A stretch of DNA of 64,000 nucleotides from Altererythrobacter sp. XM-24bin4 (GTDB lineage: Bacteria > Pseudomonadota > Alphaproteobacteria > Sphingomonadales > Sphingomonadaceae), in assembly GCA_003149575.1 (NCBI GenBank), contig QCWG01000001.1:1556334-1620333 (forward strand). Reading direction: 5' to 3'. The notes beneath the pieces were generated by a model. The model was given only the letters and a program-made list of their open reading frames with translations. It was not told where the DNA came from and made no database searches. The position numbers and the translations under genes were made by a program. Of the stretch, positions 41,646 through 58,228 are shown one piece after another (the stretch's first letter is position 1; every line of letters starts with the position of its first letter).

Positions 41646-42125
41646 ATGATCGTTTACGACCTCATCTGTGACCAAAGCCATCGCTTCGAAGGCTGGTTCG
41701 GCTCTTCTGGCGACTATGTCGAGCAGTTGGAGCGAGGGCTCTTGTCTTGCCCGCACTGCGGGAGCGAAGCGGTGACGAAAGCACCGATGGCCCCGGCTGT
41801 GCCTGCAAAGGGCAACACAAAGAGCGACAGTCCTCGTGCAGCGTCGGACGGTCAGGACGTAAGCCAGCTTTCGAACAAGCCATTGCCGCCTGAAGTGCAG
41901 CAGGCTCTCACCAAACTTGCCGAGGCACAGGCGAAGGCACTGAAGCAGAGCACATGGGTGGGTGACAAGTTCGCTGAAACATCGCGCAAGATGCATTACG
42001 GCGAAGCGGATGAGAAACCGATCCACGGGCAGGCCAGCCTCGAAGAAGCCCAGGGCCTGATGGATGAAGGTATTGCGATTGCACCGCTGCCTTTCCCTGT
42101 GGCCCCACCTGAAGATCTGAATTGA
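41646..42125 (+). CDS. DUF1178 family protein
   Basis: This 159-residue soluble protein has an N-terminal zinc-ribbon-like part (IVYDLICDQSHRFEGWF and LLSCPHCGS, cysteines at about residues 9, 36 and 39) and a conserved helical C-terminal half. DUF1178 is a family of unknown function common in proteobacteria, often next to nitrilase or glutaredoxin genes as here. It ends 80 bases before the left edge of the island. Confidence 0.9.
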   Translation: MIVYDLICDQSHRFEGWFGSSGDYVEQLERGLLSCPHCGSEAVTKAPMAPAVPAKGNTKSDSPRAASDGQDVSQLSNKPLPPEVQQALTKLAEAQAKALKQSTWVGDKFAETSRKMHYGEADEKPIHGQASLEEAQGLMDEGIAIAPLPFPVAPPEDLN

Positions 42126-42174: not shown

Positions 42175-42204
42175 TGAGCACGGCCCATGCTCGAGTCGAG
42201 ATCA

Positions 42205-42345
42205 CTGCCTGAGTGGATGACTACAATCGGGGCGACCGCACTCATAGCTTGGCTATGTGACACCGGCGGCGTTCGCCGCTGAACTCGATAAGCAATGACC
42301 TGTTTCGCTTCCGCTACGCAGCCATTGCTTCAACCGCTCTCTAGG
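42205..42345 (+). mobile_element. relic of an IS3-family transposase (OrfB C-terminus), left island edge
   Basis: Translating across frames gives DDYNRGDR, then after a frame change RPHS*LGYVTPAAFAAELDKQ* in two pieces. This is the classic end of IS3-family OrfB integrase-core proteins (YN-x-RPHSSLGY-x-TP-x-x-F). It holds at least one frameshift and two stop codons and has lost everything upstream. The relic abuts and slightly overlaps the 3' end of the TpsA gene. It shows that the left border of the A+T-rich island was shaped by an insertion sequence. Confidence 0.75.
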
Positions 42346-45300
42346 GGTTTAACGCCGAGTTTATAGATAGCGCTTCGTCATCAGATTTTGGCGCTGGTGG
42401 AGCCTCTTTTTGTGGGGCCACAGAAATGGTTGGGGTAAGAGCGACAACTTCTTGCGGAACTCCGACACTCGTATCAATCGAGGCCTCATCCTCAAAAGAA
42501 ACAGCAGCTAAAACAGGGTCTCCGCTATCCTCGGGATCACTAGGAGTAGGTGTTGGCTCATCGCCAACAGGAGACGGCGGCAATGGATCCGCTGGTTTCA
42601 CCTCCACCTTTACGATTTCACCGCCAGATTGTTGGCTGGATGTGCTCGACCCATCATCTGAACCTTCATCTCCTCCAACAGATGTGCCGCCGTCGGCACC
42701 AGTGTCAGCTTCACTATCAGATCCAGCACCATCGGACGTATCAGTAGAATCGGATCCATCGCTCCCCTCATCCGAACTTGATTCTTCAGATCCTTCGCCC
42801 GCATCATCGGACCCCTCATCGCTCTCTTCGGAACCTTCTTCTGAACTCTCGTCGCTATCCTCTGAGCCTTGATCGCCCTCATCGGTACCGTCGTCGCTGT
42901 CATCAGAGTTCGACTCCCCAGCGTCATCGCCGCCTTCTTCTGATCCATCGCCACCCTCGTCAGACCCGCTATCACCTGACCCCTCGCTACCATCGCCAGA
43001 GCCGTCGCCACTGTCATCAGAACCGCCATCGCCAGATCCTTCACCGCCACCATCGGAGCCCGTATCTCCTGATCCATCTCCACTGCCGCCTGATCCCGAA
43101 TCAGAGCCCGAAGACACCTCATTAACAATATTTTTTTGTACTGTTAGCGCGGTCTCATTCTCAACAGCCTGCACAAAAATATAGTTGGCTGCGGAAAGGC
43201 CTCCCCCAAAGATCGGGTAAAGCCCAACATCGGAATTTTCATCTGCTGGAGACGTGAAAACTAACGTTCCTGTAGTCGCATTTTCTAGGTTCTCGCCAGC
43301 AATAAAGCCTGTCACTGTACCCGAGAAAGTTGGATTTTGAGCGCCAACATATCTGGTGGCCTCATCAGCTCTGTATGTCAGAGTAGCGGGCAAAATAACT
43401 GCTGGGACAGTTATAGTATCTTGGAAACGATAACCAAACACTGGCGCACCGGATGTATCAGTAAAGTTGGCAGTGATCCCTGCAATCACAGCCTCCGTTG
43501 CATCGACTCCAGGTAGGTTCGCCGTGGCCGAGACGATATCAATTATGGCACTGTCCCCATTTACTAAACCAGAGAACAACAGGCTGACTAAATCAGGAGA
43601 AAAAGTCGTCGTTCCATCATAAATTCTACTTAGCTCTTCAGCAAGTTCTGCATTTAGCACCGGTGAAAGGCCATAGGCTAAGCCATTTCCTTCTGGTCTT
43701 TCAGGAAGTTCTGCTTCTCCCCTAGCACCGGCTAAACTTATGCCATAGTACCTAAAATCATGAACCAGAGATCCAACAATGTCTGGGTTATCTTCGCCGA
43801 ATGGATCCGGATTTCCGCTCCATACCGTCCAGGCACCAGTCTCTAAAACATCCTCCCTTTCGGAAAGGTTTGTAAAACCCGAAACGCCAATAAGATCGAT
43901 AATTTGGCGAGCGGATAAGAACGCATTCTCACCAAGTGTTAATCGCCGACCACTATCCGCAAAAATTTCGGCCAATCGGCTGTCTGCTCCTATTGTGCCG
44001 TTAAAATTAAGGTCTCCTTGAGCTCCGACCTCTAAAATACCCTCACCATCGTTTTCGGCATTTATTGGGCCTGTCATAGTGCCAGAACCATTAAATAATA
44101 TCCGCGCGTAATCACCCACTGTTATATCTTGTGCAAGTTCTACGGGCTCTTCTGTTTCTATAAAAAGTTCAGCATTCCCAAAGAAAAGCGTGTTTAAGGG
44201 TAAATTGCTCAGATTAGAAATAGCTAAAGCGCCGTTTATAATTCTCAGATTATTTATGGCTGAATTTTCACCCGACAAACGTAACGAGCCGGGACCAGTC
44301 GAAGACAAAATATTCGTGGTAACATTACCGAATATTTGACCAGACGTTAGTATGTCTAAGGTTATCTCATCGACATCGACGTCGCCATCGACAAAAATAT
44401 TCTCTCCCGCGAGAACGAGCATGGATTCTTCATTAGTCGGGTCAGACGAAATGCGGCCGCCAATAAAGATGTCCGAAACAGCACGAATATCGCCCTCGCT
44501 AAGCAGTAAAACGTCACCCCTCAATTCAATAAAGTTAGCGCTTAAAGCACTATCGAGATGAATCGTTCCTTGATTTTCCTCGGACCCAAAAGTCGTGATG
44601 ATGCTGAGATCCCCAGTAAAATCAGCATCAAAAACGTCACTACCACTTATAAATATATCGCCCCCGCTCGTACCAAGGCCAATAAAAGTCGCCGCAAGAA
44701 TGCGCGCATCTTCACTCAAGATTAGATCACCGCCGTCGGAAACAGCTGTGAACTCTGCATGTGACTGCCCTGTCCCAACAAGACCGTCGACCACAAGATC
44801 ATTCAATGCAAAGACCTGTAATACGCCGGATCCAGCATCCAGAGCGCTGGTCACAGCCGAGAACGAGCCAGGGCCCCTGAACAGAATTTGAGCTCTATCT
44901 TCTACAGTAATCTGTTGGGAAAGAGAAACAGGCGTTTCATCTAACTCCGTGTCAAGAAAACCGTCCACAAAGGGACGAATGTCGATATCAAGAAAGCCGT
45001 TGCCAAAGAAAATTGAATCGACCGGTAAATTGCTAACGTCGGAAATAGCTAAAGCACCGTTTATAATTCTTAGATGATTTATAGCTGAATTCGTACCCGA
45101 TAGTCGGAGAAAGCCTTGGCCCAACTTGGATAAGGTCTCTGCCGTCAGGTCTCCAAGAAACCAAGCATCCCCAGCATTCAAAGTGTCAACAGTAACGTCA
45201 TTAAAAGTAATGCTACCACTTACTCGCAAGTCACCGGGAGAACTAAGGACGAGCGTTGTAGGTTCGCCTTCCTCTTCCGAAGAAATATCTCCATTAATAA

Positions 45301-48300
45301 TCAGGTTGCTCAGAGAAGTGACTTGTCCGGACCGAGAGAATAAAAGGTCGCCAGATACAAAAATTGAGCCCGCACTAAGAGATTCGACAAGGTTAATTGT
45401 GCCACCAACTCCATCACCATCTTGATCAGCCTCCAAGTTTAATTGTCCAGTATAGTCACTGGCCAAAATATCGTCGCTTCCAAGTGAGATATTTCCATGG
45501 GCAAAAAGACCAACAAATTCTTCAGCTCGCAATCGAGCACTGTCGGCGAAACTCAGGTCTCCGTCTGAATAGAAAGTGGCAGCATGGAGGGACTGTTCTA
45601 GTCCGATTTGCCCAGTAATTGTCAGATCACCAAGTGCACTAACGTTGAAACTACCGACACCCTCCTCAACCGAATTAACTGGTCCTGAAACGATGCCTGA
45701 TCCTCTAAAGAGGATATCACCAGACTCTTCTACCGTAATCTGTTGCGTGAGAGTTATTGGGCCAAAATCAGTTTCAAAAACGGACTGAGAATCTGAAAAA
45801 TCTACCGTTTCTGGTTCATGAATGTCGATATCAAGAAGGCCGTCGCCAAAGAAGATCGAGTTCAATGGTAAATTGCTGATATCAGCAATTGCCAGAACAC
45901 CATTGATGATTCTCAGGTTATTTATGGAAGAATTTGGTCCTTGTATGCGCGCAGAACCAGACCCAAGCTTAGTTAAAGTTGTCGCTGTGATATCACCGCT
46001 GACCAATATATCTCCAATGCCAGGCGTCTCTAAATTGAGCTGATCAAAAACAATCGAGCCGTTAACCGATAGGGATAGGCCAGCCGACCTAAGCGTAAGT
46101 TCAACGCCCTCTTCTTCCGAAATCGTCGATATGCTGCCATTAATATTGGAATTGTTAAGAACACTTATCTCGCCGGAACCATCAAAAACTAAATTACCTG
46201 AAACCTCGAGAGCACCCGCGCTGAGAGAGCTAACGAGGTTAATGGTACCTCCAGTACCATCACTATCTCGATCGGCTGAAATTCCTAACTCGCCGCCGAA
46301 TTGCGATCCAATCACTTCATCGCTGTCGATAAAGATATCTCCATCGGCAAAGAAACCAATAGATTCGTCAGAAACTAGCCTTGCAGTCTCAGTAAGTTTT
46401 AGATCTCCTTCAGAAGAAAAATCGATGATCTCAAGGGTCCGATTAGTGCCAATAGATCCACTAATTGTGAGATCACTAATGGAAGCAATGCGTAAATTCC
46501 CAGTGTTTTCCGAAAGGGCGTCTACCGAGCCTGAAAAGGTACCAGAAGCTCCAAAAATTATTTCTCCGAATTCGTCAACCGTGACTAGTTGGTCCAATTC
46601 TAAGAGACTTGTGTTGGCAATATTGAGTGTCCCATTACCGAAATAGATGGTCTCGCTTGGAAGACCACTTATTTCCGAAAGATTTAGTCTACCACTTAAA
46701 ATCCTGAGATTCTCGAGGGTTGAATTGGAGCCGCCCAAATTGACGAGGCCTGTGCTCGTCAAAGTCCCGGCAGTGACATTGCCTAATGTGGCTTCCCCAC
46801 CCACATTCAGGATGATCTCTTCTGCCTCAGTTTCACCAATTTGAATAACACTACCAGTAACTTCAAGCAGGCCTGCAGTTATTAGCCCTTGAGCGAATAC
46901 AGATCCAATTTGGCCGCTGTCACTAGCCCCGGCGATTAGCCTCAATTGTCCTAGAAAGTTCGAGAAAACCGCAGAACTGTCTATCGAGACGTTATTATCT
47001 GCGCTGAAAATTATCTCTTGGGCCGAGCTATTGGCACCAAAACTTAATGTGAGGGGCCCACTGACAGAAATATTTCCAATACTGTCGTTGCTACGATTTG
47101 CCTCTGTGAAGTTTCTTGCATTTATGGTTAGGTTCGCGCCGCTTCCCAAAATATTCTGAAGCGTAGCTGCGCTAATTTGTGAAACTGGATCAAAGCCTTG
47201 GCTAAAAATATATGCTGTTTGAGAGATATCAGATATGATGTTTGTCGTGCAACAATTATCAAAATCGACTTCTCGGTATGTTAGCTGAGCTATTTGACTA
47301 GCGTCAGCGCCAGTCAAACCAATAGAGACGTTGTGTTGAACAATGCTAACATCACCGTAATTTAAATAGATGTCCCCATTCTCTCGTAGTCGAATTTCAA
47401 ACGTGTTAAGCTGACCGTTTATATATTCTGAGACCGCTTTCCACTGCAGAATAAATTCTCTGGTGCCGTCAGGATTTGTTATAGTCGTATAAAGGACATC
47501 GCCACCTTCATAGTTAGGAATAAGGTCTGTCCAAAGTCCAAAAATAGAGAGAAGCGGAGCATTACCATCGTCCAATGGCTGTCCGTTGCAACATCTGCTA
47601 TTACTTCCTAAATCACCAAAAGACAGGAATCCGTTAGATGAAACCTCTACACTATCGTATGTTTCTCCAAAAAATTCAAAGGCAAACCCAAGAGAAATTC
47701 TGCCGGAAACTTGATCATCACCCAAATTAAGGGATGTCATCAATGCAGGGTCATATAGCGGTGTTGTCTCGGCAGACTGCCACTCAAAATCTGAAAAGGA
47801 TAGATTTGATGAAGCAGCTGAAAGTTGATCAACTAAGTCAATAGACGCAGCAGTAAGCACAACTGTACCAGCTGTAGCGCCGCTAACAGATAATTCTGAC
47901 CCCTCAATCTCCAAATAGAACCCTGAAAGGTCAATGATGCCGCCTACGCTATCAGTTCCAACCCCATTAGCCCGGATTTCGCCAGCAACAAACGTTGCTA
48001 ATTCTTCTTCTCCCGGAGCCTCAATGGTAACTGTACCACCGGACCCTGAAACGGTAGCGCTTGCAGAAATTACGCTTCCATCAACTATCGCTATATCTGC
48101 CAGTGCACCGTTAGCCAGTTGAATACGGGTCTCTTCGACAAGAAAGGCTTCAGATTCCGAGATGGATACGAAGCTATTTCCCTCGATCGTTGTTGAAGAA
48201 TTAGAGCCTTGAGTGGCCGTCGAAAAAATAGATATTGAACCCCCGCCAGCCCCGCCGTCAGCTATTACCTCAGCCGTATCAGCCAAAGTGATCAACGTGC

Positions 48301-49204
48301 CGCTTGCTTCGATCGATCCACCAACTTCATCGGCTTCAAGACCCGCGACAGTCACAGTACCCGTTATGGTAACGTCACCATGGTCCCCAGCATCCAAGAT
48401 AATTGTGCCATTACGCTCTTCAACCGAGTTGGCCTGCAAAAGTCCCTCGGCATTTATGACACTATGAATGGCGTCTAACGCTGAGGCCATACTAAGGGCT
48501 ATCAGACCTCCATCAGCCGTGATGGTTCCCGTATTTTTAATTCCTTGAAATGATGCCGCTAGAGTGGACTCATTGCTCACAGCATAAGAAATCAGGTTAC
48601 CTTCATCAAAAGAGATACTCAGATCATTACCAGAGGCCAGTAAGACCGCTCCCAATGTCGCGCTAATCTGCCCCTCGTTTGTGATGGAGGCGCCGTGCAG
48701 GATTGTGTAACCCAATTCAGTGGCAATGCTACCAGCGTTTTCAACCGATGCAGACGAAACGCCTCCAATGCTGAATTGGTCTCCTCCTGCCATAAAGTCC
48801 GTCGATGAAATACTGCCAGTAGACGCGAGAAAACCAGAGGCAGTTACCTGACCAGTTGGAGATATGAAGATGCCGTTAGGGTTAAGTATCCAAACTCTGC
48901 CATTGGCCTCAATAGTTCCATCAATAATCGTTTGAGTAGTACCGGTGACCCTGTTTAAAGCTATCGACAATGCATCGGGCTGAACAAACTGTAGGGTCTC
49001 GTTTTCTCCCACACTAAGGTCTACCCAGTCTAGAAAAACTCGGTCAGTTGTCTGAGTAATGGTACGGACCGTACCCGCTTCATTAACGCTGTAAGTAGCA
49101 TCTCCAGCTACGACCGTCGGGGAGGAAGAGGTGTTTAGCGTATCCGCAGCCGCAACGGAACTTATACTCGCCGAGGCCAATAATATTAAGCGTAGTCGTT
49201 TCAT
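42341..49204 (-). CDS. TpsA-type filamentous haemagglutinin-like exoprotein
   Basis: This very large secreted adhesin starts at ATG 49204 (an upstream TTG adds two residues), 2287 residues. Signal peptide at 1-20 (ends SSVAAAD). The TPS secretion domain (about 22-290) has NRVTG, NGRVWILNPNGIFISPTGQV and a beta-helix. Residues about 470-660 form a nidogen-like insertion (FAFEFFGETYDSVEVSSNGF) with two adjacent-cysteine pairs, SRCCNG and DNCCTTN. Residues about 810-1770 hold three and a half 275-residue repeats. YDG (IYDGTTTF, about 1858) and MBG-like (YVGAQNPTFSGTVTGF, about 1953) modules follow. The tail at 2027-2190 is a Ser/Gly/Asp/Glu repeat. It is paired with the TpsB gene 44 bases upstream. 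Its stop lies in an IS relic, so the C-terminus may have been altered. Confidence 0.9.
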   Translation of the reverse strand: MKRLRLILLASASISSVAAADTLNTSSSPTVVAGDATYSVNEAGTVRTITQTTDRVFLDWVDLSVGENETLQFVQPDALSIALNRVTGTTQTIIDGTIEANGRVWILNPNGIFISPTGQVTASGFLASTGSISSTDFMAGGDQFSIGGVSSASVENAGSIATELGYTILHGASITNEGQISATLGAVLLASGNDLSISFDEGNLISYAVSNESTLAASFQGIKNTGTITADGGLIALSMASALDAIHSVINAEGLLQANSVEERNGTIILDAGDHGDVTITGTVTVAGLEADEVGGSIEASGTLITLADTAEVIADGGAGGGSISIFSTATQGSNSSTTIEGNSFVSISESEAFLVEETRIQLANGALADIAIVDGSVISASATVSGSGGTVTIEAPGEEELATFVAGEIRANGVGTDSVGGIIDLSGFYLEIEGSELSVSGATAGTVVLTAASIDLVDQLSAASSNLSFSDFEWQSAETTPLYDPALMTSLNLGDDQVSGRISLGFAFEFFGETYDSVEVSSNGFLSFGDLGSNSRCCNGQPLDDGNAPLLSIFGLWTDLIPNYEGGDVLYTTITNPDGTREFILQWKAVSEYINGQLNTFEIRLRENGDIYLNYGDVSIVQHNVSIGLTGADASQIAQLTYREVDFDNCCTTNIISDISQTAYIFSQGFDPVSQISAATLQNILGSGANLTINARNFTEANRSNDSIGNISVSGPLTLSFGANSSAQEIIFSADNNVSIDSSAVFSNFLGQLRLIAGASDSGQIGSVFAQGLITAGLLEVTGSVIQIGETEAEEIILNVGGEATLGNVTAGTLTSTGLVNLGGSNSTLENLRILSGRLNLSEISGLPSETIYFGNGTLNIANTSLLELDQLVTVDEFGEIIFGASGTFSGSVDALSENTGNLRIASISDLTISGSIGTNRTLEIIDFSSEGDLKLTETARLVSDESIGFFADGDIFIDSDEVIGSQFGGELGISADRDSDGTGGTINLVSSLSAGALEVSGNLVFDGSGEISVLNNSNINGSISTISEEEGVELTLRSAGLSLSVNGSIVFDQLNLETPGIGDILVSGDITATTLTKLGSGSARIQGPNSSINNLRIINGVLAIADISNLPLNSIFFGDGLLDIDIHEPETVDFSDSQSVFETDFGPITLTQQITVEESGDILFRGSGIVSGPVNSVEEGVGSFNVSALGDLTITGQIGLEQSLHAATFYSDGDLSFADSARLRAEEFVGLFAHGNISLGSDDILASDYTGQLNLEADQDGDGVGGTINLVESLSAGSIFVSGDLLFSRSGQVTSLSNLIINGDISSEEEGEPTTLVLSSPGDLRVSGSITFNDVTVDTLNAGDAWFLGDLTAETLSKLGQGFLRLSGTNSAINHLRIINGALAISDVSNLPVDSIFFGNGFLDIDIRPFVDGFLDTELDETPVSLSQQITVEDRAQILFRGPGSFSAVTSALDAGSGVLQVFALNDLVVDGLVGTGQSHAEFTAVSDGGDLILSEDARILAATFIGLGTSGGDIFISGSDVFDADFTGDLSIITTFGSEENQGTIHLDSALSANFIELRGDVLLLSEGDIRAVSDIFIGGRISSDPTNEESMLVLAGENIFVDGDVDVDEITLDILTSGQIFGNVTTNILSSTGPGSLRLSGENSAINNLRIINGALAISNLSNLPLNTLFFGNAELFIETEEPVELAQDITVGDYARILFNGSGTMTGPINAENDGEGILEVGAQGDLNFNGTIGADSRLAEIFADSGRRLTLGENAFLSARQIIDLIGVSGFTNLSEREDVLETGAWTVWSGNPDPFGEDNPDIVGSLVHDFRYYGISLAGARGEAELPERPEGNGLAYGLSPVLNAELAEELSRIYDGTTTFSPDLVSLLFSGLVNGDSAIIDIVSATANLPGVDATEAVIAGITANFTDTSGAPVFGYRFQDTITVPAVILPATLTYRADEATRYVGAQNPTFSGTVTGFIAGENLENATTGTLVFTSPADENSDVGLYPIFGGGLSAANYIFVQAVENETALTVQKNIVNEVSSGSDSGSGGSGDGSGDTGSDGGGEGSGDGGSDDSGDGSGDGSEGSGDSGSDEGGDGSEEGGDDAGESNSDDSDDGTDEGDQGSEDSDESSEEGSEESDEGSDDAGEGSEESSSDEGSDGSDSTDTSDGAGSDSEADTGADGGTSVGGDEGSDDGSSTSSQQSGGEIVKVEVKPADPLPPSPVGDEPTPTPSDPEDSGDPVLAAVSFEDEASIDTSVGVPQEVVALTPTISVAPQKEAPPAPKSDDEALSINSALNP
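42640..43130 (-). repeat. low-complexity Ser/Gly/Asp/Glu repeat in the TpsA tail
   Basis: About 160 codons encode imperfect short units such as GSGDGS, GGSDDS, EGSEES and DEGSDD. The first half is Gly/Asp-rich and the second Glu/Ser-rich. The encoding DNA is a degenerate TCA/TCN-rich tract on the + strand. The product is strongly acidic and probably extended. Such tails can span the cell envelope or bind calcium. It is also a likely site for repeat-length variation by replication slippage. Confidence 0.85.
43880..46780 (-). repeat. three and a half tandem ~275-residue repeats in TpsA
   Basis: The unit core reads like NNLRIINGALAISN-LSNLPLN-(S/T)(I/L)FFGN and recurs with DNA cores near 46630-46730, 45840-45940, 45000-45100 and 44170-44270, a period of about 790-840 bases. 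Each core is followed by a block of the type ITVEDxxxILFRGxG, then GDLxxxGxIG and SLSAGxxxVSG. The last copy breaks off after the first third. Units share about half their residues by eye, so the duplications are old but still collinear. Confidence 0.8.
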
Positions 49205-49247
49205 GACCAATTACTCATATAGGATCGCTTGTACACTGTTGTACTCA

Positions 49248-50945
49248 TTAAAGCACCTGCACAAGACTGAGATTTAGGCGAGCGGGGCGCCTCTTAATTC
49301 CAGCAAGTTCCCGCCCGTCTGAGGCAAATTGCAAGTCGAGCAGGGCTCGCTCAGCTACAACAGCTCTCAAACCAAACCCATAGGAAAGAAGGCTCTGTTT
49401 TTCAGCTTGCACTCCTTCTCCCGCAAGTAATTTAGTCTTCGCCCAGTCTCCAAAACTGTATGCCTGGAGATTTGCGATTACCCCTGCCTCATATACATCG
49501 GGAAAATCGAGCCTTAGCTCACCTAAAAGCCCAAAGCCTCTGTCGCCTGTCAGAGACGATGGCGCATAGCCCCGTCCAAGTTGAGGTCCGCCAAAAGCTA
49601 ATTGCTCTCCTGCCAACAAACGGTCGTCACTCCATTGACCCGAAGCGCGAAACAAAAATGACATGCTCCGAGAGGGAGGAAAAAGATGGTCAAATTGCCA
49701 ATCAAATTTCAGAAACTTAGACTCAAAATCAACAACGGATGGCGTTGGATTGGACTGATCCAGAGCTCCGAACGCTGGAATTCCTCCGGTCGCCACGAAT
49801 TGCAAGGCTGTTTGTCCTAAATCTGACTGATGCTGGCCGCGTAAACCTATTTGTCCGCTGACGATTTTATCACGTGTGATGACCGTATCTAGCGCCTCTA
49901 CGCGGGTAGAAGCGAATGTTACTGCAGTTTCTAGGTAAATCGCAGTTGAACGGTTTCTGAGTAATGGCGACCTCAATCGCGCCTCGACAGAGTAGGATGA
50001 ACTGGCGACCTCAAGTTCGGCAGCCTCCCCTCCTGGACGAGCGCGTGCCGCCAGCCCGCCGAGGTAAAGAATGTTACCATCAGGTCCGACAGGAAAGGCA
50101 TAACGGCCACTTACGGCCAAGAGTTCTTCTAAAGTGTGGCCAGCAGAACTGAGCGACAAATCTAGTGCTGCCGGGTGCCCGAAAGGCGAATTAACCGTAT
50201 ACCCAACAGAATATATGACCGGCCCAATTGCATCAGATCCAGTATTGCTGACACTGAAAAATCCCTGGTTTGAAGGCCTTGATGTTGTGATGGCCATTTC
50301 GGCTGCGCCAGACTCGCTTCCTGGCCTTAAAAGTGTTTTTACCGACACACCAGGCGTGTCATTCAAAATGAGTAGTTTGCCATCAAGCTCGCGAATATTG
50401 AGAGGCTTCGCACCAACCATTTCAGAAAGAGCCGCTTTTGCAAGATTCGCGCCCAAAGCAGCGCTATCATCAACTGCGATATTGTCTAGAAAACCCTCAA
50501 CAACCTCGACCGTTACAATTCCGTCCTCGATTGTTTGGGGGGGCAGAATGACTCTCGTTAAGAGAAACCCCTCGTTCGCGTAGAGTTCCTGCAGCTGGTT
50601 CGCGTATTCTCTCAACTCTTCTAATCTGACTCGTCGACCTTCTATCGACGAAAATATTTCATTAATTTGGTCTGCAGAGAAATATGTAGCACCATTAACC
50701 CGCACTTTTGAGACTAGAAAATCCAGACTTGAAACATCTTTTGGGACGACAGACTCCTCAGGATTCCGTATCGTAACGTCGTAGTCTTCCTGAGTTGGTA
50801 AATCTGGGGGAGGCAAGCGTAACCTAGAAATATCTGCGCTAGGCGGGATGACAACCGATTGCCCAAAGGCTGGAACGCCAATCATAAGGCTAAAGGGTGC
50901 AGCCATTAAAAAAGACGATCTAGAAATTTTCTCAAAGTTAATCAT
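49248..50945 (-). CDS. TpsB/ShlB/FhaC-family outer-membrane transporter
   Basis: This 565-residue partner exports the TpsA protein across the outer membrane. A signal peptide (residues about 1-29, ends PAFGQ) is followed by a linker and two POTRA domains (about 75-150 and 152-225; VRVNGATYFSADQINEIF and ILPPQTIEDGIVTVEVVEG). A 16-strand barrel follows. The conserved L6 RGY motif is present in GGPQLGRGYAPSSL. The protein ends in a hydrophobic beta-signal LNLSLVQVL. Its ATG overlaps the cyclase stop by 4 bases, placing secretion and signalling genes in one operon. Confidence 0.93.
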   Translation of the reverse strand: MINFEKISRSSFLMAAPFSLMIGVPAFGQSVVIPPSADISRLRLPPPDLPTQEDYDVTIRNPEESVVPKDVSSLDFLVSKVRVNGATYFSADQINEIFSSIEGRRVRLEELREYANQLQELYANEGFLLTRVILPPQTIEDGIVTVEVVEGFLDNIAVDDSAALGANLAKAALSEMVGAKPLNIRELDGKLLILNDTPGVSVKTLLRPGSESGAAEMAITTSRPSNQGFFSVSNTGSDAIGPVIYSVGYTVNSPFGHPAALDLSLSSAGHTLEELLAVSGRYAFPVGPDGNILYLGGLAARARPGGEAAELEVASSSYSVEARLRSPLLRNRSTAIYLETAVTFASTRVEALDTVITRDKIVSGQIGLRGQHQSDLGQTALQFVATGGIPAFGALDQSNPTPSVVDFESKFLKFDWQFDHLFPPSRSMSFLFRASGQWSDDRLLAGEQLAFGGPQLGRGYAPSSLTGDRGFGLLGELRLDFPDVYEAGVIANLQAYSFGDWAKTKLLAGEGVQAEKQSLLSYGFGLRAVVAERALLDLQFASDGRELAGIKRRPARLNLSLVQVL

Positions 50946-52939
50946 TTACTACCCATCTTAATCCAGGCCGAAATATCCCCGCTCTGCAACCTGTTACTAT
51001 GATAAATGATCAAGGGATCCGTAGGGTATTTTCCCTGAAGATCAGAAAACCTTTGAGGAGCTGAGCTATCTCGTTGCTCCAATAAAGAAAATGCTGCCTG
51101 ATATTCCGCTTCAGCCTCTTCGTTGTGCGTTGATGGAAGAGGAGTATATAAAGTTGTATATTCAGATTTTCCTTTGAGAGCAAAATGACCGATGGTTCTG
51201 AATGCTTGATCTTTTGCTTGATCGACCACCGACTGAGTACAGCATATCCTAGTGCCGAAGTATTTGTTGATCCCTTCAGTTCTCGCAGCTGTGTTTACGG
51301 TATCGCCAAGAGCCGTGAAATCCATCCTCTGTGAAGAACCGAAGTTACCAACCACTGCTGGGCCGGCATGAAGACCGATCCTAGTTACGCCAAGAGGGAT
51401 ACCTTTATTATTACACTCCTCACGATACTTTTCTGCGTAAGAATCCAACTCAAGTGCAGCCTGAACCGCAGCTGCAGCATGGTCAGGTTGCTCAATGGGT
51501 GCATTGAAGATCGCCATAATGGCATCTCCAATAAACTTATCGATTGTACCCCCATGCCGTAGAATAATTTCGCAGGCCCCATCTAGATATTGATTAAGAA
51601 CATCTGACAAATCCTCGGGCGAAAGAAGTTCAGACATCGTCGTGAAATCCGCAACATCGGTAAACAAGAAAGTGGTATCTCGTTTTTCTCCGCTTATTGC
51701 GGCTGCACTGGGATCTTCCGCAATTCGATCAACCACGGCCGGTGATACATAACGCGAAAATGTTGACTGAATGTATTGGCGCTGCATTCTTTCGGCGCGT
51801 CCAATTACGATATCCATCATCCACACAGATAAAAGAAGAGCAAGAGACGGAGGCAAAATAGGCCACATGCCAATCCCGTAGCCATAGCCAATAATGCAAA
51901 GCACCCAATAGCCGGCCAGTACCGCAATTGATAAAGATAAATTGAAGACCAGACCTTTGCGAAGTTGGCTAATCAGCACACCCAGAGCCGTGAATGCAAT
52001 AACAACAAGCAGTGTAAACCCTATTGAGGACTTCGGCTCAGGCATGCCTGACAGCAAGCTGTCAATAGCATGGGCTTGTATAAGTACACCGGGCATAAAC
52101 CCGCGATTTCCATCGTCTATAATCGAGAGTGGCGTTGAATGACGGTCGGTGATGGATAGAATAGCCCCTATGAGAACTATTTTTTCTTCGAATAGTTCGT
52201 CGGGCAAGTAGGTGACGTAGTTGGCTGATATTACCGGAAAAGGCTCTTGGCCTTCTGCTGATACTGGACGCCATGAAATCTCACGAGGTGTTTCGAGCAA
52301 AGGGACCCCTTGCGAGTTAGCAATTTTAGCGGCGAAGCTTGGCGGATAATCATCGTTATAAATAAGTTCTCCATCGGAAAAAATTCCACCCGTGTTAATT
52401 CGACGAACAAGAGAGTCAAAAGGATCAGATAAGAGCCTGCTTTCCACTCTTTTGTCAGCCGGAATGAAGGCCCTCATGTAATTAAGCTGATCTTCAGTTA
52501 CGAACGCGGGATCTGCTGTATAACTAAAATATAAAGGTGTCTCAGACCGGCGAATTACCTCAAAAAGTTGAATATCTTTAGATTCCTCGCTGGCTTGATC
52601 GATAAGGACATCCACTACAATCGCCGAGGCCCCTGCGGAATCTATGCGCTCGATCAAATCGGCGATGAATGCTCTATCAATGGGTGAACGGTAAGAAAAT
52701 TGAGCTAACGTATCCTCATCAAGTGCCACCACAATAATGTCATCGGATGGCTCTTTCGGCACTTCCATCGCCGCAACCCGAATATCGGCAAGTTTCTTCT
52801 CAAGATTATCCAGTGGTGCAAGGGTTTGTACTGCAACAAAAGCAATGATTGCTGACAGAAGGGCAACAAGGGTAATCCAAAGAGCCGACCGCGTAGGTTT
52901 ATTTAATACAATCGAAGACCAACTTGCGGGAAGCCTCAT
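50942..52939 (-). CDS. CHASE2-domain adenylate/guanylate cyclase (class III)
   Basis: This 665-residue membrane cyclase has an N-terminal helix (about 17-38) and an extracytoplasmic CHASE2 sensor domain (about 45-320, with VVALDEDTL and DRAFIADLIERIDSAGA). Three transmembrane helices (about 325-395) precede the class III catalytic domain (about 415-600). Metal-binding Asp residues lie in FLFTDVADFT and GDAIMAIF. The base-contacting Lys is in TIDKFIGD and the transition-state Asn/Arg in TALGDTVNTAARTEG. A full catalytic set is present, and the Lys/Asp pattern favours cAMP. The strong GGAG Shine-Dalgarno lies before ATG 52939. CHASE2 senses unknown periplasmic signals. Confidence 0.93.
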   Translation of the reverse strand: MRLPASWSSIVLNKPTRSALWITLVALLSAIIAFVAVQTLAPLDNLEKKLADIRVAAMEVPKEPSDDIIVVALDEDTLAQFSYRSPIDRAFIADLIERIDSAGASAIVVDVLIDQASEESKDIQLFEVIRRSETPLYFSYTADPAFVTEDQLNYMRAFIPADKRVESRLLSDPFDSLVRRINTGGIFSDGELIYNDDYPPSFAAKIANSQGVPLLETPREISWRPVSAEGQEPFPVISANYVTYLPDELFEEKIVLIGAILSITDRHSTPLSIIDDGNRGFMPGVLIQAHAIDSLLSGMPEPKSSIGFTLLVVIAFTALGVLISQLRKGLVFNLSLSIAVLAGYWVLCIIGYGYGIGMWPILPPSLALLLSVWMMDIVIGRAERMQRQYIQSTFSRYVSPAVVDRIAEDPSAAAISGEKRDTTFLFTDVADFTTMSELLSPEDLSDVLNQYLDGACEIILRHGGTIDKFIGDAIMAIFNAPIEQPDHAAAAVQAALELDSYAEKYREECNNKGIPLGVTRIGLHAGPAVVGNFGSSQRMDFTALGDTVNTAARTEGINKYFGTRICCTQSVVDQAKDQAFRTIGHFALKGKSEYTTLYTPLPSTHNEEAEAEYQAAFSLLEQRDSSAPQRFSDLQGKYPTDPLIIYHSNRLQSGDISAWIKMGSK

Positions 52940-52947
52940 TTACTCCT

Positions 52948-53658
52948 CTACTCCACCGTCTCATTGGATAAGGATGCCAGCAGTGCGTCGACCTGTTGAA
53001 TACACCCTTTCTCTATCATCCAAGCAGCAAGAAACGTTGGTTCGTCCAGCAGTGGAGGAACTAGATGCACACGAATACTATATTCCAAATCCCTGTCCTC
53101 AATCAGGAAGGCCTTGGTCAAGTCTATGTCGCTTACCTTAGTGATGGCGACAGTATCTTGTCCGGGTTTAAATTGAAACGCAGCCTTCCAAGATCGGTCA
53201 AGTGGAGACACAACAAAACTTTGTTCTGAAACATCAGATGGCCGCCACCAACCAATTGGGGCCCCTTCTACGAGACACCGTTCCCCTGGTCGAGTTATAT
53301 CAATCAGCCAAGGTGATGGTATCGGATCTGCATCTGAACCAGACCGAACAGCTCCAACACGATTTGCACGGTCATTGCGGGTGGCAATTAAAGCTGAAAG
53401 GGCGCGGCTAGCATTTTGACCGGCGGCTGCCTGAAGTCTTACCGGGCCATTATGAGGACCCCTAAGCCTAATTACACCGCCGTCGGTCCCCACAACCACT
53501 AGCTTACCTCCTGGTGGTAGTGAGACTTGACGGTCTGCGCTGATCCGGCTTCCAACACTTATATCTACGCCTCTGACCTCAACAACAATTAGGCTCTGAG
53601 CATATGTCGGAACCGTTAACCCGATTACCAAAATGAAACTGATGAGCGCGCGGATCAC
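52948..53658 (-). CDS. periplasmic FecR-like protein, unknown function
   Basis: This 236-residue protein starts with GTG at 53658, overlapping the CHAT gene stop by 4 bases. It has a signal peptide (residues 1-20, ends PTYAQ). The next 70 residues (VGSRISADRQVSLPPGG, LVVVGTDGGVIRLRGP) resemble the beta-rich FecR-type domain. The remaining C-terminal half has no clear family and contains two cysteines (CLVEGAP and KGCIQQ) that could form a disulfide. It lies between the protease and cyclase genes, so it may be a sensor or inhibitor in the same circuit; that is inference. Confidence 0.7.
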   Translation of the reverse strand: MIRALISFILVIGLTVPTYAQSLIVVEVRGVDISVGSRISADRQVSLPPGGKLVVVGTDGGVIRLRGPHNGPVRLQAAAGQNASRALSALIATRNDRANRVGAVRSGSDADPIPSPWLIDITRPGERCLVEGAPIGWWRPSDVSEQSFVVSPLDRSWKAAFQFKPGQDTVAITKVSDIDLTKAFLIEDRDLEYSIRVHLVPPLLDEPTFLAAWMIEKGCIQQVDALLASLSNETVE

Positions 53659-56225
53659 AATCTTGACCCCGAGCTAAAGACAGTCTCGGCACCACTTCCC
53701 ACGAAAGAAAATGCTCCCCAGAAGAAGGGGTGTGCCGTCTCTTCATTGGAAATTGCCTCAACCTGAGCGCGCTGAAGTGCCTGATCGGTCGATAGACCCC
53801 TTTCGTCGCCTATATTTCCGAAAAGATTTTTCATTAAGGTAGCAGTGGCTACAGAGGGAACTTGCCAATGGGTAACAAGCATACTGCGCGCGCCTGCTAT
53901 AAAGAAACTTTCAGCCAGACCAGAAAGCGATTCCCCTTTTTGGACAGCCGCGTCACTGCTGGTTGCAGTATTGCAAGCCGATAACACCACTAAATTCGCT
54001 GAAATCCTGAGGGCGGCAATTTCACTGGCATCAAGAAAACCATCTTCTGTTCTTGAAAGTGCCATCTCTCCTGGACGAGCTAGCGCTATGCCTGGCTCGC
54101 GTTGACAAGCCACCTCTCCTGGCATCACTGCGTGAGTTGCGACGTAGATAATATTATACTGGTTCAGAGCGTCAGTGCGAAAGACTTCTTCTTTAGCTGC
54201 TCGGTCAGAAAACACATCAGCATCTTCAATCCCTAAAGAAGCAATAACTGAGTTCACTTCGTCGATTGTGTCGGGCAGTTCTTCGAGGCTATCAAACCGG
54301 CTTAGTATCGCAAGGCCTTCGGGATTACAAATTGGATCCTCTGACGTGGGTAGCGTTTGAATGTCAGATACAAACTTAGGATTAGCTACACCCAAAAACG
54401 ATCTTGGGGGAGCCCTCACAGTTCTTGTGGATCTTAAATTTATAAAACTAACTAACGACGGAGCATGTGTAACCGACATTCGATTAACTAGCCAGCTCGC
54501 CTCTGTGTAATCTGCGCTCAGGGGTAAGCGGGTTACTAAAGTGCCAAACGGTAGATCGCTCAATGGGCCATTGGGTATCACAATTAAACGCCCCAACTTG
54601 TTAAACTCATCAGCAACAGCCCCAAAAAGCGTCTGATAAAGGAAATGAGATTCATCAAGATTAAATTCGTTTACTGATCCACCCTCTATTTCGAGACCCT
54701 GACGCAATTCGCGAACCATTTGATCAAGCTTGTCATTACCAGCTTCTATCGGCGCAATGTGCACTCTATCTCGCGTAATAAGCTGCAGGAAGGATGAATC
54801 TTGCCCTATCAGAAAGCTAGCAAGCGCTTCATCAGGTGCTAATGCACCCCGAACAACATTTAGGTCGGGCAGCTCACTACCGTCAAAGCGTTGGTAATCA
54901 GGATATTCCTGATTTAGGATATCGCGAATCCCGGACACCTTATCAGACTGTATCTGCAACTGAGAGAGTAAAAACTCTATCAGGCGATCATCACGGTCTC
55001 CGGTAACTTTAGCTCGCTCTACACCTAATTTTCCATTAATTTCTGCTTGCAATAATAAGCTCTGCTTAAGGCTATCAATCAGGTCAGCAAGGACTGGATC
55101 GTCATCGACAAACTGCATAGACGCAAGATTAATCACATCGTCTCGCCCTGGAACAAAGGCAATTTGGAAGGCATCATAAAGCTCAGTCATTAAACCAAGC
55201 CTATCTTCCTCGCTTTCCAAGAACTGCTCTTCATCAAGAACAGCAGAAGCAAAAGGGACTAGATCATCTACCCGAAGTGCTACTGAACCGGGCGGCATAT
55301 TTTTTGCAATTTCTACAGCTCTACGAAAGGCTATGATCGAGTTAACGTTCATTGCTTCGCGCTGATATGCGCGCCCCTGAGCAAGGAGCAAACGAATCAT
55401 TCCCGGCCCGTCCCCTTGGACCGATCGTCTAATATCAATCGCTTTCTTAAAAAAAGTATCCGCAGCTGATAAGCGTCCTAAAGCAGATGATGCTTCACCC
55501 AAAATAGCAAGTATCTCTGATCGCCATATGGGGGGTTTTTGAGCTGCTGAATTGAACTCAAAAAGAGCTTCGCCTGCCTTGGCATAAGCAGTTACAGGAT
55601 CGTCCATTCGCAAAAGAATGGCAGCTTCACGAGCTAACGAAAGTGCAAGCTCAGGCTGAACGCCAACCCGCGCCTCTTCCTCCGTTTGGAAAAGCGACAA
55701 CAAGGCTTGCTGATCATCACTACCAATAATTTCTCTCCACCTGGAACTGGCATCTTGCGCAAAACGGTTGGCGACCGAATAATCGCCTTGAAGCATAGCA
55801 ATGGTCGCTTGGTAACCGGCAAATCTGGCTCTATCAGTAGGGCGAGGCGATCTATCAATAATTGGTCCAGCTCGACGGACGATCGCGTCAGCACCTTCGA
55901 AATCTTCCTGATATGCGAGCACCATTGCAAGATCCAAAAGCAAGGCCGCTGTCGTAAAATCTGAATCACCGAACAACCTAGATTGAACCGCTAATGCGGC
56001 CTCAAGGCGTTCTTGGGCCGCAGAAAAATCAAGTTTTTCACTGGCTTCACGTGCAGCATTCCAGTCAGTCTCAATAGAGATAAGTTCAGATGTGCTTTCT
56101 GTACTATCTGCCTCCGGCGTTGAGCCCTCTGATTTAATCTCCGCTGAAGATGGTCGGGCGCCAGAGACTAACGGATCGGCTGCCGCAGGTGCGGCAGCCA
56201 AAAGTAAAATAAGGCTCAAAAACAT
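53655..56225 (-). CDS. secreted TPR-CHAT caspase-like protease
   Basis: A signal-peptide start at ATG 56225 (MFLSLILLLAAAPAAADP) gives 856 residues; the longer reading to 56306 adds 27 non-signal residues. TPR-like helical repeats occupy about 60-420, including LAQGRAYQREAMN and AKAGEALFEFNSAAQ. A linker precedes the CHAT domain at about residues 570-855. The caspase-type dyad is intact: His698 in YVATHAVMPGE and Cys751 in VVLSACNTA, followed by AGARSMLVTHWQVP. CHAT proteases are usually cytoplasmic, so the export signal is notable. It is the first gene of the five-gene operon. Confidence 0.88.
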   Translation of the reverse strand: MFLSLILLLAAAPAAADPLVSGARPSSAEIKSEGSTPEADSTESTSELISIETDWNAAREASEKLDFSAAQERLEAALAVQSRLFGDSDFTTAALLLDLAMVLAYQEDFEGADAIVRRAGPIIDRSPRPTDRARFAGYQATIAMLQGDYSVANRFAQDASSRWREIIGSDDQQALLSLFQTEEEARVGVQPELALSLAREAAILLRMDDPVTAYAKAGEALFEFNSAAQKPPIWRSEILAILGEASSALGRLSAADTFFKKAIDIRRSVQGDGPGMIRLLLAQGRAYQREAMNVNSIIAFRRAVEIAKNMPPGSVALRVDDLVPFASAVLDEEQFLESEEDRLGLMTELYDAFQIAFVPGRDDVINLASMQFVDDDPVLADLIDSLKQSLLLQAEINGKLGVERAKVTGDRDDRLIEFLLSQLQIQSDKVSGIRDILNQEYPDYQRFDGSELPDLNVVRGALAPDEALASFLIGQDSSFLQLITRDRVHIAPIEAGNDKLDQMVRELRQGLEIEGGSVNEFNLDESHFLYQTLFGAVADEFNKLGRLIVIPNGPLSDLPFGTLVTRLPLSADYTEASWLVNRMSVTHAPSLVSFINLRSTRTVRAPPRSFLGVANPKFVSDIQTLPTSEDPICNPEGLAILSRFDSLEELPDTIDEVNSVIASLGIEDADVFSDRAAKEEVFRTDALNQYNIIYVATHAVMPGEVACQREPGIALARPGEMALSRTEDGFLDASEIAALRISANLVVLSACNTATSSDAAVQKGESLSGLAESFFIAGARSMLVTHWQVPSVATATLMKNLFGNIGDERGLSTDQALQRAQVEAISNEETAHPFFWGAFSFVGSGAETVFSSGSRL

Positions 56226-56371
56226 GTTGCTAAATGTCTGCAGCAAGTGGTCCACGACAGATACGATAGATACAATTGCCCCCTCTGACGAGTCTAATCT
56301 GAACATTTATGCAGATGACAGGTGTTGGATAATCGGCGATACCATTGTGGCTGGGAATTTAAATTAGTCCC

Positions 56372-56602
56372 TTATTGGACGCCAAAATGAGAGTAGCGAC
56401 TGATCACGTGATTTTTAGCCACTGAATAGCCCTTAGATTTGTGGACGCCATCGGTGCTCATAATCTGCTGCCTTTCGAACTCTACGGGTGACAGCATCCC
56501 GTTCCTTACATGCTTGCGTATCGGGTTGTAGAACACCTCGATGTAATCGAACACATCCTGCCTGGCCTCGTCGCGTGAGCGATCATGAGAGGCAGCTTCA
56601 GG
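56372..56602 (-). mobile_element. relic of an IS3-family transposase (OrfB C-terminus), right island edge
   Basis: The - strand frame reads SRDEARQDVFDYIEVFYN, then KHVRNGMLSPVEFERQQ. This is the C-terminal end of an IS3-family OrfB with the usual FDYIE-x-FYNP-x-R(R/K)H signature. An in-frame stop at about 56603 and the absence of any upstream DDE residues show it is truncated. It differs in sequence type from the relic at 42205, so two separate insertion events are likely. It marks the right border of the A+T-rich island. Confidence 0.75.
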
Positions 56603-56823: not shown

Positions 56824-56863
56824 TTAAACAGCCATATGTGTTAGCCGGACTGCAGGGGTGGGA

Positions 56864-58228
56864 ATGACGAGTCGGTTGAGAACTTTATTGGCCCGAGTGG
56901 CGCCGCTTGCCGTTGTCCTTACGTTCGCCTTCGCACTTCCGGCTTCGTATGCGCAGAATAGTGCGACCTATGAAGGGGTTGCGACTTGTGCGGGTTCGAC
57001 TTGCCACGGCCGGGCTGTAGGCAATGGCGCCGTTGTCCGGCAAGATGAGATTGCGACCTGGCAAGATCCTTCATCACCCAGCGGGGCGCATAGCCGGGCC
57101 TATGCATCGCTTGCGAGCCGGCGAGGTCAGCAGATCGCGGACAGTCTGGGATTGGGAGCCGCAACCTCTGCTCCCGATTGCTTGGGTTGCCATTCGACCT
57201 TTGCGCCGACTAGCCAACGCGGTGACCGCTTTCTCCTGGCAGATGGTGTAGGCTGCGAAAGCTGCCATGGCGCGTCGCAAGAGTGGCTTCCGCTCCACTA
57301 TGCTCGCTCGGCTACGCATGCCTCCAACGTCGCTTTGGGGCTAGTGCCTTTGGAACGCCCGCAAGTGCGCGCAAACGTCTGTCTGGATTGCCATTACGGA
57401 TCCGAAAGGACCGGTCAATTTGTAACACATTCGATGATGGCGGCAGGACATCCGCGTATTTCGTTCGAGCTCGATCTCTTCAGTGCGCTTCAGCAGCACC
57501 ACGATTTAGATAGTGACTATGTTGATCGCAAGGGGGCGTCTGATAGCGTGCGGATGTGGGCGGTCGGCCAGGCCGAGGCGGTGCGTCGCGCAACCAACCT
57601 TTTCGCGAAGCCAGCCTTGGCGCAGCGCGGGATGTTTCCCGAATTCTACTTCTACGATTGCCATTCGTGCCATCGCTCGATCCACGATGGGCCGCAGCGA
57701 AAGCTAACCTTTGAAAGCAATCCGGGGCGCCCGATACCGTTCGGCAACCCACCATTTAATGATGAGAACATCATCACGTTGTCCGCTGTTGCACGGGTGC
57801 TTGCGCCAGACGAGGCGGATCACTTCCTTGCGGCGAGCAGGGCCTTTCATCGAGCGATGGGCGAGGATCATAGCAAAGCGCTTGAAGCGGCCGTGATACT
57901 GCGCGGCCACGCATTCAACCTATCCAATGTGCTTGCGTCGCGCGAATACGCCGGATCGGACGCGTTCTCCGTGATCGCTGCGATATCCAATCGCGCGACG
58001 TCTTCGCGTTTCACGGACTATGCGGGCTCGGTTCAGGCGGTGATGGCGGTCGATACCTTGCTCAACGCCATGGTGCGCGATGGCCGGGTGACTGTCGGTG
58101 CGGCGGCTGGCATTCGCGCGAATATCAATCGCGCTTACGCGGCTGTGGCGGTGCCCAATAGCTACCGGCCGCAATCTTTCCGATCCGCGCTTGGCGAAGC
58201 GGCTCGCGCGATAGGCACGCTGCGGTAA
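56864..58228 (+). CDS. periplasmic five-haem cytochrome c, c554-like
   Basis: ATG 56864 is preceded at good distance by AGGGG; the GTG two codons upstream lacks a ribosome site. The 454-residue product has a signal peptide (1-30, ends ASYA). Five haem motifs follow: an unusual CX4CH at 42-48 (CAGSTCH), then CXXCH at 106, 131, 173 and 266. The N-terminal half therefore resembles the cytochrome c554/multihaem group, including the distal His residues in THSMMAAGHPRISFE. Residues 290-450 are helical and haem-free. It overlaps the next gene by one base (TAATG). Confidence 0.88.
   Translation: MTSRLRTLLARVAPLAVVLTFAFALPASYAQNSATYEGVATCAGSTCHGRAVGNGAVVRQDEIATWQDPSSPSGAHSRAYASLASRRGQQIADSLGLGAATSAPDCLGCHSTFAPTSQRGDRFLLADGVGCESCHGASQEWLPLHYARSATHASNVALGLVPLERPQVRANVCLDCHYGSERTGQFVTHSMMAAGHPRISFELDLFSALQQHHDLDSDYVDRKGASDSVRMWAVGQAEAVRRATNLFAKPALAQRGMFPEFYFYDCHSCHRSIHDGPQRKLTFESNPGRPIPFGNPPFNDENIITLSAVARVLAPDEADHFLAASRAFHRAMGEDHSKALEAAVILRGHAFNLSNVLASREYAGSDAFSVIAAISNRATSSRFTDYAGSVQAVMAVDTLLNAMVRDGRVTVGAAAGIRANINRAYAAVAVPNSYRPQSFRSALGEAARAIGTLR

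Follow-up and report, generated by a model that had tools for sequence, protein, structure and literature searches.

A recurrent operon joining a predicted exported TPR-CHAT protease, a CHASE2 cyclase and a two-partner secretion pair

The nearest functional precedent for the locus described here is the cleavage of the two-partner secretion (TPS) adhesin CdrA by LapG in Pseudomonas aeruginosa, a step under c-di-GMP control (PMC4694147). In Bordetella, DegP and CtpA act on the C-terminal region of FhaB, which shows that TpsA C-termini undergo processing in the periplasm (PMC8263021). In the open-licence literature we found no published description combining CHAT, CHASE2, FecR and TPS. The window, by which we mean the whole stretch of 64,000 nucleotides analysed from Altererythrobacter sp. 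XM-24bin4, carries such a CHAT protein, a CHASE2 cyclase and a TPS pair side by side. The features considered in this work are as follows:

53655–56306 (likely start 56225), minus strand: TPR-CHAT caspase-like protease, predicted exported (Pfam CHAT, 171 bits, plus TPR)
52948–53658, minus strand: secreted 236-aa partner protein with a signal peptide (conserved family, no Pfam match)
50942–52939, minus strand: CHASE2 sensor and class III nucleotide cyclase (Pfam CHASE2, 108 bits; Guanylate_cyc, 70 bits)
49248–50945, minus strand: TpsB/ShlB outer-membrane transporter with POTRA (Pfam ShlB PF03865, 79 bits; POTRA_2 PF08479, 66 bits)
42341–49210, minus strand: TpsA exoprotein, 2289 aa (Pfam TPS PF05860, 97 bits, residues 36–279; MBG_2, 46 bits)
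42341–42610, minus strand: final ~90 aa of TpsA, a C-terminal tail that may serve in recognition or processing
56455–56575, minus strand: IS3-family transposase relic at the upstream border (translation DVFDYIEVFYNPIRKHVRNGMLSPVEFERQQ)
42200–42300, plus strand: IS3-family transposase relic at the downstream border (translation LGYVTPAAFAAELDKQ, broken frames)
56858–58228, plus strand: tetrahaem cytochrome c554-like protein, opening the divergent block (Pfam, four CxxCH motifs, synteny)
58228–60174, plus strand: HbpS-like lipoprotein of the cytochrome block (Pfam, synteny)
60177–62012, plus strand: 611-aa protein of the cytochrome block with weak porin similarity (NCBIfam, E 3e-4; synteny)

The original prediction, made from the letters and their reading frames, had read the five minus-strand genes at 42341–56225 as a single operon. 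We confirmed the ORFs and their junctions, and Pfam bore out the identities proposed for the TPR-CHAT protein, the CHASE2 cyclase, TpsB and TpsA. The CHAT frame is open to 56306; the CHAT and 236-aa genes overlap by GTGA (53655–53658), an 8-base gap (52940–52947) precedes the cyclase gene, the cyclase and TpsB genes overlap by ATGA (50942–50945), and 37 bases separate TpsB from a TTG start of TpsA (49210), or 43 from an ATG (49204). Promoter- and terminator-like sites within the operon were at the level of shuffled sequences, a sigma-70-like promoter was not found upstream of CHAT, and CRP-type sites were not enriched in the window (17 vs. 22.3 in shuffles). Its neighbours are a divergent cytochrome gene (56858, plus strand) on one side and a convergent DUF1178 gene (41646–42125, plus strand) on the other.

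The GC content of the operon is 47.3%, as compared to 57.1% elsewhere in the window. The change is abrupt at both edges, and each edge bears a transposase relic that we take, from general knowledge, to belong to the IS3 family. Because of this low-GC island and the relics on both sides, the five genes are read as acquired together as one cassette, which looks mobile and laterally acquired. The 2.53 Mb genome contains a single CHAT gene, a single class III cyclase gene and a single ShlB/TpsB gene, all of them within the operon.

CHAT and other caspase-fold proteases are abundant in bacteria, and to our knowledge their targets are mostly unknown except in CRISPR systems and for HetF. The likely start of the window CHAT protein is an internal ATG at 56225 (Met28 of the open frame), where a signal-peptide-like stretch begins, although this stretch is without a basic n-region; most linked relatives carry a signal peptide or a lipobox, and the protease is accordingly predicted to be exported. 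The catalytic residues His725 and Cys778 are invariant in 43 of 43 relatives. The structure model (pLDDT 81) matched separase (5fby, Z 26.6) and the Craspase TPR-CHAT protein (7y9x/8d9f, Z about 26) best in the PDB; judged by this model the protein is a clan CD member of separase/Craspase-type fold, with predicted proteolytic activity. The window copy is without an N-terminal domain of ~200 aa present in most relatives, and the upstream IS3 relic lies just before its start.

The 236-aa protein encoded next was matched to no Pfam family. The label “FecR-like”, attached to it in the original prediction, serves as a nickname only, since neither this protein nor any of 39 homologues produced a Pfam match to FecR (PF04773) at E ≤ 0.1; likewise, FecIRA-type signalling parts (an ECF sigma factor, a TonB receptor) are absent among the five operon genes. 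The structure model of the partner (pLDDT 84) gave PDB matches with Z of only about 5, none of them clear, one being the C-terminal domain of MtxA (4z29), and we found no literature linking MtxA to FecR. Profile searches (A1/A2) located the partner in 38 of 385 alphaproteobacterial genomes, and a profile search of 398 genomes sampled phylum-wide located it in 26. At three loci the partner gene stands in tandem copies (L134:9235-10742, L136:9502-11003 and L147:9045-10677).

The cyclase has a predicted topology of one N-terminal transmembrane segment, a periplasmic CHASE2 domain, about three further transmembrane segments and a cytoplasmic catalytic domain. The metal-binding Asp pair and the Asn/Arg residues are invariant across 66 relatives, and the substrate Lys, found in 51 of the 66, is present in the window copy. 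By its domains and key residues the protein fits the CHASE2 class III adenylate cyclases, with cAMP as the predicted product.

By domain content and adjacency, TpsA and TpsB of the window are a two-partner (type Vb) secretion pair. TpsA consists of an N-terminal TPS domain, repeats, one MBG_2 domain, a linker rich in Ser, Gly, Asp and Glu, and a conserved C-terminal tail. The features of contact-dependent inhibition (CDI), a toxic C-terminal domain on the exoprotein with an immunity gene after it, are absent: TPS and MBG_2 are the only domains found in this TpsA, it ends in the low-complexity linker and the tail, and the next gene is the convergent DUF1178 gene. The last ~90 aa share 65% identity with the relative in genome G015, comparable to the TPS domain, whereas the repeats diverge and the middle of the protein does not align.

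Near the C-terminus of linked TpsA proteins we noted a short GNExLW-like motif (WGNEALW, WGNTALW, AGNEDFW, SGNEALW, SGNEGLW, AGNEDLW, GGDASLY), which is present in Sphingobium too. In a comparison set assembled irrespective of CHAT, the motif was found 11–24 aa from the end in six of six CHAT-linked TpsA proteins, representing about four genera, and in none of 25 unlinked ones. This strict wording was chosen after viewing the linked set, and a matrix fixed earlier gave p = 7.6e-4 (4 vs. 25). A Sphingomonas parapaucimobilis relative fits the motif only loosely (NNEELL), and the degenerate window tail (SINSALNP) fits poorly, its best matrix match (5.8) lying elsewhere in the tail. With such a loose fit, the tail is therefore a lead for the system and not a property proven for the window copy.

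Rather than being rarely adjacent elsewhere, the outcome named in the original prediction as counting against it, these genes recur as a set in many genomes and in several orders. With CHAT as a query, the CHAT, secreted partner and CHASE2 cyclase genes were contiguous in Novosphingobium, another Sphingomonadales genome, Burkholderiales, Ferrovum and Rhodospirillales MAGs, usually with TpsB next. Between them, Alpha- and Betaproteobacteria showed the gene set in no fewer than six orders:

Order A, CHAT-partner-cyclase-TpsB-TpsA: the window, G015, G715, L032
Order B, giant-CHAT-partner-cyclase-TpsB: L033 (giant incomplete, cut off, with MBG_2)
Order C, TpsA-TpsB-CHAT-partner-cyclase: G323
Order D, TpsB-TpsA-CHAT-partner-cyclase: G064, G234, G330
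Order E, TpsB-giant-CHAT-cyclase-partner: G019, G027, G034, G025, G024, G001, G016
Order F, CHAT-cyclase-partner-TpsB-giant: G798, Sphingobium herbicidovorans (strain MH, plasmid pMSHV), Sphingobium sp. TomTYG65
Order G, TpsB-giant-CHAT, cyclase on the opposite strand: G297

The giant proteins adjoining TpsB in orders E and F had no TPS-domain match where tested. The co-occurrence of CHAT in cyanobacteria with CHASE2 and haemagglutinin genes, mentioned in the original prediction, was not reproduced, since the CHAT protein of an Oscillatoria plasmid proved to be a WD40-CHAT protein and no TPS relative.

We counted 83 TPS-domain matches in 190 alphaproteobacterial genomes; 12 of them had a CHAT gene no more than 15 kb away, in every case on the same strand, as compared to about 0.59 expected. 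Among the same genomes, 46 had a TPS domain, 41 had CHAT and 19 had both (Fisher p = 3.6e-4), and many of the CHAT genes were located away from TPS genes. CHAT-TPS pairs without partner or cyclase were found at nine loci (L041, L168, L169, L191, L195, L207, L214, L216 and L217). Conversely, among 69 secreted-partner loci, which are not phylogenetically independent, 53 had a CHASE2/cyclase gene, 41 had a caspase-fold gene (14 CHAT, 28 Peptidase_C14) and 60 had no TPS gene. The partner/cyclase signalling module is thus not specific to TpsA, and since CHAT-TPS occurs without the cyclase, and cyclase and partner without TPS, we describe the set as two linked modules. Of the dedicated secretion circuit envisaged at the outset, the association of the genes in a recurrent system is supported; the protease and a cAMP signal may control the release or abundance of TpsA.

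Caspase folds other than CHAT appear in the same surroundings. In G116, a WD40-Peptidase_C14 protein occupies the place of CHAT, and giant DUF4347-cadherin proteins ending in Peptidase_C14 adjoin the secreted-partner gene at L130:2610-9737, L142:2932-9534, L145:10670-16945 and other loci. HlyD and HlyD/M50 exporter genes occur at some partner loci of other phylum members; at L135:7084-11403 there are three HlyD-type genes, one of them a Peptidase_M50 fusion, beside the partner and cyclase genes, possibly an unusual exporter.

A 2337-aa TpsA of G111 (L201:5504-12517) combines a TPS domain (119 bits) with a C-terminal Peptidase_C14 domain (78 bits) in a single ORF, preceded by CHASE2 cyclase and TpsB genes and with intact catalytic motifs YYAGHG and SDSCYSG. 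This protein passed the same frame check that removed an apparent TpsA-CHAT fusion at L195 (a 2442-aa open frame), where the TpsA frame stops at L195:10433 and CHAT begins separately, as a lipoprotein. The L201 fusion is the strongest single hint of the protease acting on the exoprotein.

In sphingomonads the conserved neighbourhood reaches into the divergent cytochrome block, which the original prediction had omitted. Past the window, as seen at L172:1-9378, the block also encodes a multihaem cytochrome, a CpdA/SpdA-like phosphodiesterase whose metal motifs are intact, a decahaem cytochrome bearing an FHA domain, a membrane protein, and a FAD/Fe-S oxidoreductase of 816 aa that carries two cyclic-nucleotide-binding domains. 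Parts of the block adjoin the partner/cyclase module at at least ten further sphingomonad loci, in varying orientation. The block resembles a route for electrons to the cell surface. With a phosphodiesterase and a cyclic-nucleotide-binding oxidoreductase encoded beside the cyclase module, the genes for making, degrading and sensing cAMP may, judged by synteny, lie together at one sphingomonad locus.

At the level of sequence, the case comprises the gene set and how it recurs, the compartments predicted for the products, the intact catalytic residues, the correlation of the tail with CHAT and the TpsA-caspase fusion; the CHAT, partner, CHASE2 cyclase, TpsB and TpsA genes very probably constitute one system. 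By analogy with CdrA and LapG, the reading we favour, with somewhat better than even confidence, is a mobile, self-contained circuit for the regulated periplasmic proteolysis of a type Vb surface protein. TpsA would pass the outer membrane through TpsB with its N-terminus leading, leaving the C-terminal tail exposed in the periplasm. The predicted compartments are such that CHAT, the partner, CHASE2, POTRA and TpsA in transit would meet there. The exported TPR-CHAT protein, using its TPRs as a substrate-binding arm, would recognise and cut the tail, thereby maturing, anchoring or releasing TpsA; that TpsA is what CHAT cleaves seems slightly more probable than otherwise. The secreted partner and the periplasmic CHASE2 domain would report how the tail-cutting step, or the envelope, stands; in the cytoplasm, the cyclase would convert this report into cAMP. 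We infer cAMP as the product from the cyclase sequence, and hold its direction and role in the circuit only tentatively, at rather less than even confidence. At the wider sphingomonad locus, the CpdA/SpdA-like phosphodiesterase could remove the signal and the oxidoreductase with two cyclic-nucleotide-binding domains could read it.

The large TPR region of CHAT also fits a different role, that of a chaperone or assembly factor holding TpsA in the periplasm, with catalysis aimed elsewhere, for example at the 236-aa protein, whose cutting or binding would switch the CHASE2 cyclase. CHAT adjoins the secreted-partner gene in several orders, and the association of partner, cyclase and caspase fold exists without TPS as well, as such a role would allow. 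We consider it unlikely, given the nine CHAT-TPS pairs that have neither partner nor cyclase, and the tail motif, which tracks CHAT.

The resemblance of the CHAT fold to the Craspase TPR-CHAT protein, and the presence of CHAT proteins and class III cyclases in known defence systems, suggest a surveillance or suicide circuit comparable to Craspase and Pycsar defence, in which phage or damage to the envelope would trigger CHAT as an effector, with the TPS pair as co-transferred cargo. The apparent lateral acquisition of the cassette would suit this, as would the match of the cyclase domain to the PycC models of PADLOC. However, that match is to a generic cyclase domain and is the only one, CHAT and the other operon genes having none, and the predicted export of CHAT and the partner, together with the membrane-bound CHASE2 cyclase, is unlike the cytosolic parts of defence systems. 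A defence circuit also leaves the stable TpsB/TpsA pairing over several gene orders and the TpsA-caspase fusion unexplained, and we regard it as quite improbable. A plain adhesin operon that includes its regulator, co-transcribed for a biofilm or surface lifestyle with no direct biochemical coupling, is similarly doubtful: CHASE2 sensors next to FecR-type proteins are known from a biofilm regulatory operon (PMC5192318) and the modules recombine freely, but shared regulation would require neither the repeated re-association in varied orders nor the TpsA-caspase fusion nor the CHAT-specific tail.

If regulated proteolysis of TpsA is correct, the exported CHAT group gains a likely substrate in the giant surface protein encoded next to it, together with a probable tail for recognition and a probable signal, and the circuit would be a third, caspase-based way to control type Vb adhesins, besides LapG and DegP/CtpA. 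A broader extension, possible but on the unlikely side, is a widespread and so far undescribed class of caspase-controlled surface-protein export, in which a caspase-fold protease outside the cytoplasm (either CHAT in trans or C14 fused to the exoprotein) would read the short C-terminal tail of giants, and the partner and CHASE2 cyclase would couple this step to cAMP. The same toolkit would serve DUF4347-cadherin giants next to HlyD/M50-type exporters and would, among sphingomonads, connect via the cyclic-nucleotide-binding oxidoreductase to the multihaem electron pathway.

Among described systems, the BiofilmReg operon of Burkholderia (PMC5192318) likewise has a gene for a periplasmic protein adjoining a CHASE2 sensor gene. 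There, however, a LysM-FecR protein is paired with a CHASE2 histidine kinase for a two-component output, with no cyclase, CHAT or TPS, whereas FecR homology of the partner is unsupported here. The Sinorhizobium protein CyaD1 carries a CHASE2 sensor on a cyclase, as does the window operon, with cAMP as its output (predicted here), although the excerpted description mentions neither CHAT nor a TPS partner (PMC5498481). With the Craspase TPR-CHAT protein Csx29 and with separase (PMC9729208; PDB 8d9f, 5fby) the window CHAT shares its predicted fold over most of the protein and the His/Cys dyad. Those enzymes cut Csx30 or cohesin inside the cell, whereas export is predicted for the window CHAT, whose gene lies beside those of a secretion pair.

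As with FhaB/FhaC of Bordetella, the periplasmic C-terminal region of a TPS exoprotein would be processed stepwise by protease, here as a proposal; in the excerpted FhaB account the proteases are DegP, CtpA and SphB1, with no caspase-fold enzyme and no cyclase or CHAT described (PMC8263021). The likeness is closest to CdrA/CdrB-LapG-LapD, in which a periplasmic cysteine protease, proposed to act under second-messenger control, governs the surface display of a TPS adhesin, with a cut site near the C-terminus proposed by its authors (PMC2847200, PMC4694147); a corresponding arrangement is proposed here. Pfam found neither LapG transglutaminase-like nor LapD GGDEF-EAL domains in the operon. In place of a transglutaminase-like protease and a c-di-GMP receptor, the window has a separase/Craspase-like clan CD CHAT protein and a CHASE2 cyclase predicted to make a nucleotide, and, unlike in the CdrA system, all parts lie within one apparently mobile operon.
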